Below, one piece after another: positions 2,560 through 59,296 of a DNA stretch of 64,000 bases. Positions within the stretch are counted from its first letter, which is position 1; the number at the start of each line of letters is the position of its first letter. Source of the DNA: Azonexaceae bacterium (lineage in GTDB: Bacteria > Pseudomonadota > Gammaproteobacteria > Burkholderiales > Rhodocyclaceae); contig JAAXVL010000002.1 in the NCBI GenBank assembly GCA_013335535.1, forward strand, positions 62,001-126,000. The letters run 5' to 3'. A program made the position numbers and the translations under genes. The notes under the pieces are model-generated. The model had not been told where the DNA came from. It saw nothing but the letters and a program-made list of their open reading frames with translations, and made no database searches.

Positions 2560-3205
2560 GCCGCTCGGCCTCTTCGGAGGCACCTTCGATCCTGTGCATT
2601 TTGGTCACCTCCGGCTGGCCGAGGAGGCAATTACCCATCTTGGCCTTGGCGGCGTGCGCTGGATTCCGGCTGGCCAGCCACCGCATCGCGGCACGCCGCA
2701 GGTGACCGCGCAGCAGCGTCTGGAGATGGTGCTACGGTCAACCGGAAATAATCCCCAATTTTCAATTGATGCCAGCGAAGTCGAAGCTGCTGCGCCGAGC
2801 TACACGGTGCACACGCTCGAGCGTCTGCGCCGCGAACTCGGGGCCGAGCAATCGCTCGTCCTTCTCGTCGGCGCCGATGCCTTCGCCGGACTTGCCACCT
2901 GGCACCGCTGGCGGGACATTTTTTCCCTGGCCCACGTTGCCGTCTCGCACCGCCCCGGTTTTCCCGTCGAAGCGAGCAGCCTGCCGCATGAGCTGGCCAC
3001 CGAATTCAACGACCGCCGCCTGACCGACGTCAGCGGGCTGAAACGCGCTCCGGCCGGAGGAATAGCCACTTTTGCCATGACCCAGCTGGCCATTTCGGCA
3101 ACGCAGATCCGCAAGCTGCTGGCCAACGGGCTTTCGGCGCGTTATTTGCTGCCGGATGCCGTTCTCGACTATATTCGCCTTCACCAACTCTATAAAAGTA
3201 CCTGA
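2552..3205 (+). CDS. nadD: Nicotinate-nucleotide adenylyltransferase
   Basis: TTG start at 2552: (M)[35 protein letters not shown]; contains repeat copy K. Confidence 0.92.
   Translation: [217 protein letters not shown]
2733..2770 (-). repeat. Dispersed element copy K (inside nadD)
   Basis: Reverse complement ATCAATTGAAAATTGGGGATTATTTCCGGTTGACCGTA. Confidence 0.75.
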
Positions 3206-3570
3206 TGGACATCCGCAAGCTGCAAAAAATCATCGTTTCCGCCCTTGAAGACATCAAAGGCAAGGATATCGAAGTCATCAACACCTCCAAGCTGACGTCG
3301 ATGTTCGACCGCATCGTCATCGCGACGGGCGACTCCAACCGCCAGGTCAAGTCGCTCGCCAACAACGTTCAGGAAAAGGTCAAGGAAGCCGGTGCCGAGG
3401 TCATCTCGACTGAAGGCGAAGATACCGGCGAATGGGTGCTGGTCGACCTTGGCGACATCGTCGTGCACGTCATGCAACCGAACGTGCGTCAGTATTACAA
3501 CCTTGAAGAACTGTGGTCGGCGACCCCCGCGCAGCGTCGCAAGGCCGTGGAGCAGGCCCGCGAAGAATGA
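3205..3570 (+). CDS. rsfS: Ribosome silencing factor RsfS
   Basis: 121 aa; KGKDIEVINTSKLTSMFDRIVIATGDSNRQVKSLA, GEWVLVDLGDIVVHVM. Confidence 0.95.
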   Translation: MDIRKLQKIIVSALEDIKGKDIEVINTSKLTSMFDRIVIATGDSNRQVKSLANNVQEKVKEAGAEVISTEGEDTGEWVLVDLGDIVVHVMQPNVRQYYNLEELWSATPAQRRKAVEQAREE

Positions 3571-4037
3571 AGCTGGCCGTACTTGCCGTCGGTCATCGTC
3601 AGCCCGCCTGGGTGAACGAAGGCTGCGCCGAGTACCTCAAACGCATGCCGCGCGAACTGCCGGCCAGCGTCACTGAAATCAAGCCCGAACCGCGCGGTTC
3701 AAAAACCCGCGAACAACTGCTGGCCGCTGAAAAAGGGCGCATCCGCGACACCCTGCCGGGCAGTTGCCGAATTGTCGTGCTCGACGAAAAAGGCGAAGAC
3801 CTGACCACGCTCAAACTGGCCAAACGGCTTGAAGTGTGGATGCAGGACGGCCGCGACGTGGCGCTGCTCATTGGTGGCGCCGACGGGCTCGACGAGGAAT
3901 TCAAGCAACAGGCCGACGACAAGCTGCGTCTGTCCAGCCTGACGCTGCCACATGGCATGGCGCGCCTGATATTGTGCGAGCAGCTTTACCGTGCCGTCAG
4001 TGTTCTGAAAAACCATCCATACCACCGGGAGGGATGA
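3567..4037 (+). CDS. rlmH: 23S rRNA (pseudouridine1915-N3)-methyltransferase RlmH
   Basis: MKLAVLAVGHRQPAWV..., LIGGADGLDEE, EQLYRAVSVLKNHPYHREG. Confidence 0.95.
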   Translation: MKLAVLAVGHRQPAWVNEGCAEYLKRMPRELPASVTEIKPEPRGSKTREQLLAAEKGRIRDTLPGSCRIVVLDEKGEDLTTLKLAKRLEVWMQDGRDVALLIGGADGLDEEFKQQADDKLRLSSLTLPHGMARLILCEQLYRAVSVLKNHPYHREG

Positions 4038-4642
4038 TGCGTCTCTACCTCGCTTCGCGCAGTCCGCGCCGCCGTGAATTGCTGCATCAGATCGGCATCG
4101 ATTTCGATACTGTCGTTTTTCGCGATGGCATGCGCGCCGATAGCGAAACCGACGAAACGCCGATGGCGGGCGAGTCGCCCGTGGTCTACGTCGAACGCGT
4201 GGCGCGCGCCAAGGCGATGCACGGTCTGAAGATCGTCGAGGAGCGTCGCCTGCCGATGCGGCCCGTGCTGGCGGCCGACACGACACTGGAGCTCGATGGC
4301 CAGATCATCGGCAAGCCCGTCGACATGGCCGACGCCGCCGCCATCCTGCGCCGTCTGTCTGGGCGCACGCATCGCGTGCTGACCGGCGTCGCCATCGACC
4401 ATCAGCGGCGTACCGAGTATCTGCTGTCGACCAGCGAAGTCCGTTTTCGCCATATCGACGACGAGGAAATCCGTCACTACGTGATCAGTGGCGAGCCGAT
4501 GGACAAGGCCGGGGCCTACGGCATCCAGGGCCGAGCCGGCCTGTTCGTCGAGCATCTCTCCGGCAGCTACTCCGGGGTGATGGGCCTGCCTGTCTGCGAG
4601 ACCGGCGAACTGCTCAAAAAGCTCGGTTTCCGGCCGATTTAA
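4037..4642 (+). CDS. Maf family nucleotide pyrophosphatase
   Basis: MRLYLASRSPRRRELLHQIG..., LAADTTLELDGQIIGKP, GKAGAYGIQG-like motif. Confidence 0.93.
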   Translation: MRLYLASRSPRRRELLHQIGIDFDTVVFRDGMRADSETDETPMAGESPVVYVERVARAKAMHGLKIVEERRLPMRPVLAADTTLELDGQIIGKPVDMADAAAILRRLSGRTHRVLTGVAIDHQRRTEYLLSTSEVRFRHIDDEEIRHYVISGEPMDKAGAYGIQGRAGLFVEHLSGSYSGVMGLPVCETGELLKKLGFRPI

Positions 4643-5201
4643 GCGTTGCCACGGCACCGATGTAGCCGTCGGGCAAGGTCAGTCGCTGCGCGCGGCAGGG
4701 CGCCAGCCGTGCCTTCAGATGCGGACTCCACTCGATCAACGGTACGCCCAGGCATTTTAGGCGGGCTTCGTGTTCCGTCCACGCCTGGGCAAATTGCACT
4801 ATCTGTTCCGGCTGGGCGGCAACCGAGAGTTGTTGGGCTACATACGGGCCGAGGTAATCGTCGGCCAGTATGGCGATTTGGCTCTGCCAGTTCGGGGCGT
4901 TGGGTACCCGCAACAGATCGACCCCGACCGGACCTCCCCGATGGATGGCCAGCAGCGAAAGCCCGGCTTCATGGCTCACCGAAATGCCCGGCGGGTTGTC
5001 CCGAATGGCCAGGCGTAGCGGCTGGCCGGGGGAGGATATCAATTCGACATCGCCGAGGATGTCGCGCAAAACATCTCGCACCCGCTGGCGGGCTACGTCG
5101 CGAATGGTGGTTTTCGGCGTTTCGATGGCAACGATGATCAGATCCTGCGCCGGGTCGGCTATACCAGGCCAGTGCAGGACCACCGGTGGCCGGTCGCGCA
5201 T
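4614..5201 (-). CDS. 4'-phosphopantetheinyl transferase superfamily protein
   Basis: GISVSHEAGLSLLAI, VGVDLL, WTEHEARLKCLG motifs; adjacent to a carrier-domain synthetase. Confidence 0.8.
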   Translation of the reverse strand: MRDRPPVVLHWPGIADPAQDLIIVAIETPKTTIRDVARQRVRDVLRDILGDVELISSPGQPLRLAIRDNPPGISVSHEAGLSLLAIHRGGPVGVDLLRVPNAPNWQSQIAILADDYLGPYVAQQLSVAAQPEQIVQFAQAWTEHEARLKCLGVPLIEWSPHLKARLAPCRAQRLTLPDGYIGAVATLKSAGNRAF

Positions 5202-57745: not shown

Positions 57746-59211
57746 TGGGCAAGCCGACTGGCTTCATGGAGTTCGAGCGTCTCTCCGAGTCTTACGACCC
57801 GGTTGAGCAACGCTTGAAGCACTACAAGGAATTTGTCCACGCCTTGTCTGACGACAACGCCAAGATTCAGGGCGCGCGTTGCATGGACTGCGGTATTCCC
57901 TTCTGCAACAACGGTTGCCCGGTGAACAACATCATTCCGGACTGGAATGACCTGGTTTATCGCGGCAACTGGAAGCAGGCGCTGGAAGTGCTGCATTCGA
58001 CCAACAACTTCCCGGATTTCACCGGCCGCATCTGTCCGGCGCCCTGCGAGGCTGCCTGCACGCTCGGCATCAATGCCGCGCCGGTGGGCATCAAGTCGAT
58101 CGAGCACGCGATCATCGACAAGGGTTGGGAAATGGGCTGGGTTGTGCCGCAGCCGCCAAAATCGAAGACCGGCAAGAAGGTTGCCATCGTCGGTTCCGGA
58201 CCGGCCGGTCTGGCTGCCGCGCAGCAGCTGGCGCGCGTTGGTCACGATGTGACGGTGTTCGAGAAGAGCGATCGTCTGGGCGGCCTACTTGCCTACGGCA
58301 TTCCTGACTTCAAGATGGAAAAGACCCTGGTCGACCGTCGCGTCGCCCAGATGGAAGCCGAAGGCGTTGCCTTCAAGACCAAGGTCGTGATCGGTGACAA
58401 GAACGTGCCGGCCGGCATCAACAACGATTCGACCTCCTTCGTTTCGGCCGAACAGCTGAAGCAGGATTTCGACGCGGTGATTCTCGCCGCCGGCTCCGAA
58501 GTGCCGCGCGATCTGCCAGTGCCGGGCCGTGAGTTCAAGGGCATCTACGCTGCGCTCGAGTTCCTGATTCCGCAGAACAAGGAAGTCCAGCAGGGCAAGG
58601 CCAATCCGATCAACGTCAAGGGCAAGCACGTCATCGTGATCGGTGGCGGCGACACCGGTTCTGACTGCGTCGGTACGTCGAATCGCCACGGTGCTGCCTC
58701 GGTGACTCAGTTCGAACTGATGCCGATGCCGCCGGAAGAAGAGAACAAGGAGCTGACCTGGCCGTACTGGCCGTACAAGCTGCGTACGTCTTCTTCGCAC
58801 GACGAAGGCTGTACCCGTGATTTCGCCGTCGCCACCAAGGGCTTCGTCGATGATGGCAAGGGCAACGTCAAGGCGCTCAAGGCTGTTCGTCTGGACTGGA
58901 AGGACGGCAAGATGAGCGAAGTGGCCGGTTCGGAATTCGAACTGCCCTGCGACAACGCCTTCCTGGCCATGGGCTTCACCAATCCGGTCGGCGGTCTGCT
59001 CGATGCCTTTGGCGTTGAGAAGGATGCGCGCCAGAACGCCAAGGCAACGACCGACGGCGCAGGTTGCTACAAGACCAATGTCGACAAGGTTTATGCCGCC
59101 GGTGACGTGCGTCGCGGCCAGTCGCTGGTGGTCTGGGCGATCCGTGAAGGCCGTCAGGCCGCCCGTGAAGTTGACGCTTTCCTGATGGGTTCGACGACGC
59201 TGCCGCGCTGA
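57745..59211 (+). CDS. gltD: Glutamate synthase small subunit
   Basis: [51 protein letters not shown]. Confidence 0.97.
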
Positions 59212-59227
59212 ATCGAGATCACGCCAG

Positions 59228-59262
59228 AAAGCCCCGCCGCCTGAAAAGCCGGCGGGGCTTTT
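59228..59262 (+). terminator. Rho-independent terminator after gltD
   Basis: AAAGCCCCGCC...GGCGGGGCTTTT; runs directly into repeat copy B. Confidence 0.9.
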
Positions 59263-59296
59263 CAATTTTTGGCTTTTTTTCCGGTTGACCGTGGCA
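59261..59296 (+). repeat. Dispersed element copy B (downstream of gltD terminator)
   Basis: TTCAATTTTTGGCTTTTTTTCCGGTTGACCGTGGCA. Confidence 0.9.

Follow-up and report, generated by a model that had tools for sequence, protein, structure and literature searches.

Sequence-specific DNA uptake has been described for two families only, the Pasteurellaceae and the Neisseriaceae (PMC7811141, PMC13020248). These families are found mainly in host mucosae, and why uptake specificity evolved there is debated. The uptake signal sequence (USS) of the Pasteurellaceae consists of AAGTGCGGT together with AT-tracts, with ACAAGCGGT as the Apl type; the DNA uptake sequence (DUS) of the Neisseriaceae is a GCCGTCTGAA-type 10-12-mer with a CTG core. 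A 41-bp element dispersed through a 64,000-nucleotide stretch of a freshwater Azonexaceae bacterium (Burkholderiales; assembly GCA_013335535.1, contig JAAXVL010000002.1, positions 62,001 to 126,000; hereafter the window) shows the features by which USS and DUS are defined (PMC1626085, PMC3630211, PMC7811141). The element is probably an uptake signal sequence for natural transformation in a third lineage, with a motif unrelated to DUS and USS, as suggested by its copy number, balanced orientation, origin by substitution, core-plus-tract architecture, dialects, conserved positions, depletion in islands and restriction to one genus, and by the presence of generic uptake genes. In the literature searched, no earlier description of the element, nothing linking Dechloromonas, Azonexus or Rhodocyclales to uptake sequences, and no report of competence in the Azonexus/Dechloromonas group was found, although most subscription journals were outside the coverage, so that this absence is no proof.

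The consensus is ATTTCAATTTTGGCCRTTTTTTCCGGTTGACCGTGGVAATC, which is asymmetric, carries 47.5 bits and has abrupt boundaries (-24 to +16 around GGTTGACCG). A preliminary description of this DNA had listed 11 copies of an undescribed element of about 35-42 bp; all 11 are present in the window, and the size is refined to 41 bp with sharp edges. The 7-bp spacing between GGCC and CCGG that had been pointed out in some copies is true of the consensus. The window has 14 occurrences of the 9-mer GTTGACCGT, as against 0.43 expected (0 of 100 shuffles reached 14); 11 of these occurrences are element copies, and the other three (16221, 17738 and 53708) are without the flanks and were not counted. A weight matrix adds one copy, for a total of 12 (Table 1). 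In the 4.25-Mb source genome (G000) the exact 19-mer TTTTTCCGGTTGACCGTGG occurs 200 times, 99 forward and 101 reverse, with 0 for the reversed-pattern control, which rules out the local duplication or cluster that had been named as an alternative. A matrix scan (46 columns, cut-off 14 bits) of 864 kb from two large contigs (C1 and C32) yielded 186 copies in both orientations; an equally long Markov null yielded none. By extrapolation the genome thus holds about 900 copies with conserved spacing, which supports the earlier suggestion of a genome-wide system, for which hundreds of copies had been named as the expected sign.

The element is made up of a core, CCGGTTGACCGTGG, and two AT-tracts about 11 and about 22 bp upstream of it (at about -20 to -14 and -8 to -3), i.e., about one and two helical turns from the core, an arrangement also present in the Pasteurellaceae USS. 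A and T are often interchangeable within the tracts, which are retained in all dialects. No palindrome or stable RNA fold was found in the element (fold z-score -0.12) and no Rfam family overlaps any copy, which rules out a structured RNA.

By its motif, the element is outside the DUS and USS sequence families. Like USS, it is present on both strands in copies that number in the hundreds to thousands, and it combines a short core and AT-tracts with a strong consensus; the same alignment test by which USS were shown not to be insertions was applied here with the same outcome, types are clade-specific, and competence genes are sometimes disrupted (PMC1626085, PMC7811141). Unlike USS, it has an unrelated core (neither AAGTGCGGT nor ACAAGCGGT; the reverse complement of dialect B shares TGCGGT only) and a dialect-A motif that is much longer and more information-rich, and its host lineage is free-living and betaproteobacterial. 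As with DUS, dialects differ between related species and copies lie in and between genes (PMC3630211), and both lineages belong to the Betaproteobacteria. Inverted pairs are frequent in all DUS genomes (PMC3630211), whereas they are nearly absent here (1 among the 186 copies). Also unlike DUS, to which the motif is unrelated, terminator hairpins are not above control and the AT-tracts belong to the motif. The HIP1 word of cyanobacteria is a genome-wide over-represented short palindrome; the element resembles it as a genome-wide over-represented word in one lineage, and differs in being 41 bp long and asymmetric, with AT-tracts and dialects.

Sixty genomes of the genus were scanned with GGTTGACCGT and GTYGACCGYRGSA, at least 50 matches in either search defining a carrier. 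Carriers were 32 of the 60, with about 57-760 matches for the better pattern; the remainder were at background. Reversed controls gave mostly 0-5 matches with the longer pattern, and with the 10-mer as many as about 20. Enrichment was seen in none of 247 further genomes from the order, and the element is confined to one genus, the Azonexus/Dechloromonas group. At least three dialects occur: A (GTTGACCGTGG), B (GTCGACCGCRGCA) and C (GTYGACCG plus an AT-tract). Matched to named records by identical counts, carriers of dialect A include G079 (Azonexus sp., JAUYEI), G078 (PHCF), G076 (PHCH), G075 (JAHJVE), G066 (OU015322), G002 (JAEUOG) and G011 (JAGTRT), the motif of G066 being intermediate (29.6 bits). 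On the same basis DJUX (Dechloromonas UBA6271) corresponds to G081, and the cultured isolate Dechloromonas sp. Dech2017 (SSXW01), which has 331 dialect-B matches and an undisrupted comEC, to G033. Dialect B was seen in the closed genome G029 (core GTCGACCGCRRCA, AT-tract at -20 to -16), with 315 matches in 380 kb as against 29 in the null (strands 156/159). The classing of G062 as a weak carrier was dropped, since it has the third dialect, with core GTYGACCG and the same tract, without RGCA. When 7-mers were ranked by their association with an AT-tract lying 20 bp upstream, no core being assumed (four carriers, six non-carriers), GTTGACC, TTGACCG or GTCGACC came top in 4/4 carriers and 0/6 non-carriers. 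A GTYGACCG core was found at the aligned position for 29 of 46 G000 sites alignable to G029, and for 3 of 76 in the non-carrier G034; orthologous sites often hold their position across dialects while the word switches. On a weakly supported single-gene tree carrier status changed at least 8 times and was no more clustered than in shuffles (71 of 500 were as low), so that gains and losses are not countable.

Copies on C1 are spaced more evenly than random (coefficient of variation 0.67 vs. 0.98 simulated; 0 of 5000 simulations as low), and on C32 the coefficient is 0.92 before and 0.67 after a metal-resistance island. The element is missing from two large, recently acquired islands. The metal-resistance island (about 48.6 kb) splits a gene, makes up most of the longest copy-free gap (56 kb) and holds 0 copies vs. 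11 expected (p ~1.5e-5); an island in comEC (about 33.6 kb) holds 0 vs. 7.7 expected (p ~5e-4). The former lies at about 294.7-343.3 kb of C32, appears by the look of its sequence to encode heavy-metal resistance (RND efflux, P-type ATPases), and the gene split by it is transporter-like.

A chromosome-binding role is the main rival explanation: a protein that organises or segregates the chromosome (nucleoid-associated, macrodomain or KOPS/Chi-like) would bind the element, and selection for binding would maintain hundreds of sites. The spread of the element over the whole genome, the conservation of its positions and the lack of copies in islands would suit any selected chromosomal site, but the balanced strand counts of both the G000 19-mer and the G029 matches are unlike the polar KOPS and Chi and rule out a polar replication signal. 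The patchy presence among sister species and the coordinated switching of dialects better suit a self-recognition signal, and 47 bits exceeds the need of a binding site found only about 900 times; this explanation is rated as unlikely.

Regarding the origin of the copies, most orthologues in non-carrier species at two in-gene sites are coding sequence of the same length without the element. In-gene copies aligned gap-free in 35 of 49 alignments with G034 and in 30 of 36 with G029, and some of the gapped alignments are probably misalignments. Identity between G000 and G034 was 0.61-0.66 in the element as against 0.80-0.82 in the flanks, so that change is concentrated in the element. Intergenic alignments were mostly gapped and hence uninformative on origin. 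As judged from these alignments, the in-gene copies arose through base substitution, not insertion (compare PMC1626085 for USS). A small mobile repeat (REP- or MITE-like) that spreads by copying and insertion would explain the sharp edges and strong consensus, the usual look of young mobile repeats, and could still hold for some intergenic copies, whose alignments have gaps. It is ruled out for the genic copies, which align gap-free with same-length coding sequence in species without the element, and is overall very improbable: the columns vary unevenly and with A/T interchange, unlike random decay, the palindrome or stable fold is missing, and the searches yielded no plasmid match and 5 single matches in 2.9 million viral contigs. 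The only match to a phage record, a partial one of 25 bases in a streptococcal satellite phage, was judged to be due to chance.

With genes called by a simple codon model, 98 of the 186 copies lie wholly within genes, 65 are intergenic and 23 are at gene edges. About 10% of the sequence lies between genes, and the earlier count of 6 intergenic copies among the 11 in the window agrees with the annotation. The in-gene copies (37 sense, 61 antisense) show a strong frame preference, and some sense copies code for hydrophobic N-terminal segments, e.g., MKHFIFACFFGLTVGSAQAD. A transcription-level signal, i.e., a terminator tail or regulator site near gene ends, would suit the enrichment of copies between genes (intergenic and gene-edge copies together) and the location of some right behind GC hairpins, with the AT-tract as U-tail, but is hardly credible given that over half of the copies are within genes and mostly antisense, that hairpins are equally frequent on the control side (14/55 vs. 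15/50 in a folding-based count) and that the copies follow no promoter or operon pattern. A count of strict hairpins (8 on the 5' side vs. 2 on the 3' side) had suggested a terminator signal; this was gone in the folding-based count with controls.

Under the reading as an uptake signal sequence, in which both a bias of uptake by the motif and a pilin as its receptor are inferred, motif-bearing DNA would be favoured by a DNA receptor of the type IV pilus at the cell surface. This receptor would read the GTTGACCGTGG core with the aid of the rigid AT-tracts, which lie one and two helical turns from it. A better motif would let a fragment enter and recombine more often, and motif-improving point mutations would spread over time. 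Copies would accumulate by substitution where the protein code and intergenic DNA allow, and the motif would keep uptake among relatives of the same dialect. The pilMNOPQ operon in the window is a candidate part of the DNA-uptake machine. Among the 60 genomes of the genus, DprA was found in 59, ComEC in 59 (53 above cut-off), ComEA above cut-off in 54 and a pilin of the ComP_DUS family (PF16732) in 56.

Several observations weigh against an uptake function. At 47.5 bits, the dialect-A motif greatly exceeds known uptake words in length; inverted pairs, a common feature of DUS, hardly occur, and hairpins are no more frequent next to copies than on the control side. Competence genes are common to carriers and non-carriers, element presence does not track them, and their presence is unsupported as an explanation of carrier status. 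The ComP_DUS-family pilin is doubtful as the receptor: it occurs in non-carriers as well as in carriers, varies between dialect-A genomes and is not matched to dialect. Disrupted comEC was counted in 5 of 31 carriers vs. 8 of 26 non-carriers, which is not significant (p = 0.22). Finally, comEC of G000 itself is split by the island of about 33.6 kb (C33:109.6-143.3 kb), so that this strain may no longer be competent though the words remain.

A large serine recombinase adjoins the junction of this island, and integration into the competence gene comEC is recurrent. A related island was seen at the same point of comEC in G067; G004, G017, G028, G035 and G080 have comparable splits close to model positions 145 or 161-166, as do probably G005, G007 and G018. 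The gene is apparently frameshifted in the non-carrier G034 (C1:1958.4-1960.2 kb) and in the carrier G078 (C145:64.6-66.4 kb). The closed genome of the carrier G066 (OU015322.1) gave no ComEA match above cut-off; competence may have been lost there, or ComEA may be divergent.

A more far-reaching account is favoured on balance, with less assurance than the uptake function as such: self-specific uptake would have had a third origin among the free-living Rhodocyclales of fresh water and soil, with a 41-bp word read as a core plus two spaced AT-tracts, with dialects that divide the genus into separate gene-exchange groups, and with defence-type islands that turn comEC off by integrating there. 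If true, an independent third case among environmental bacteria would set a mucosal-niche explanation of uptake specificity apart from a general one, and a core with AT-tracts would be a convergent solution. The occurrence of several dialects and of recent losses within a single genus would also offer a system for studying how words change, and natural competence would be predicted for the Azonexus/Dechloromonas group.

Table 1. Copies of the element and the pilus operon in the window (positions counted from its first nucleotide).
Feature	Position	Strand	Bits	Remarks
Element	2727..2767	-	42.5	Within gene, antisense; no gaps in alignment with non-carrier G034; position shared with G066 and G029
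Element	10341..10381	-	62.8	Intergenic
Element (missed in preliminary description)	12918..12958	-	43.2	Core GTTCACCGT; within gene, antisense; G029 has GTCGACCGC there
Element	15937..15977	+	52.9	Within gene, antisense; gap-free against G034 and G029
Element	20901..20941	+	53.8	Intergenic, immediately behind GC hairpin (terminator-like); aligned place in G029 is dialect-B core GTCGACCGCGGCA
Element	21852..21892	-	47.3	In frame in 248-aa gene; most non-carrier orthologues have ordinary coding sequence of same length
Element	22371..22411	-	36.0	In frame in same 248-aa gene as preceding copy
Element	31736..31776	-	55.6	Intergenic
Element	33596..33636	+	44.0	Intergenic; aligned place in G029 is GTCGACCGCAGC
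Element	35043..35083	+	56.8	Codes for hydrophobic N-terminal segment MKHFIFACFFGLTVGSAQAD of 298-aa protein
Element	41514..41554	+	67.1	Intergenic; near-perfect consensus
Element	59259..59299	+	61.7	Intergenic, immediately behind GC hairpin (terminator-like)
pilMNOPQ operon (type IV pilus assembly, PilQ secretin)	46184..51228	+		Pfam PilM_2, PilO and Secretin; PilN and PilP by gene order

Two further observations were made. The octamer CGAGCAGG is over-represented in G000, G034, G062 and G066 and is possibly a genus-wide Chi/KOPS-like word. An S-adenosylhomocysteine (SAH) riboswitch (RF01057, 44.9 bits) lies at 24368-24445 (-) of the window, upstream of a 486-aa gene at 22887-24347.

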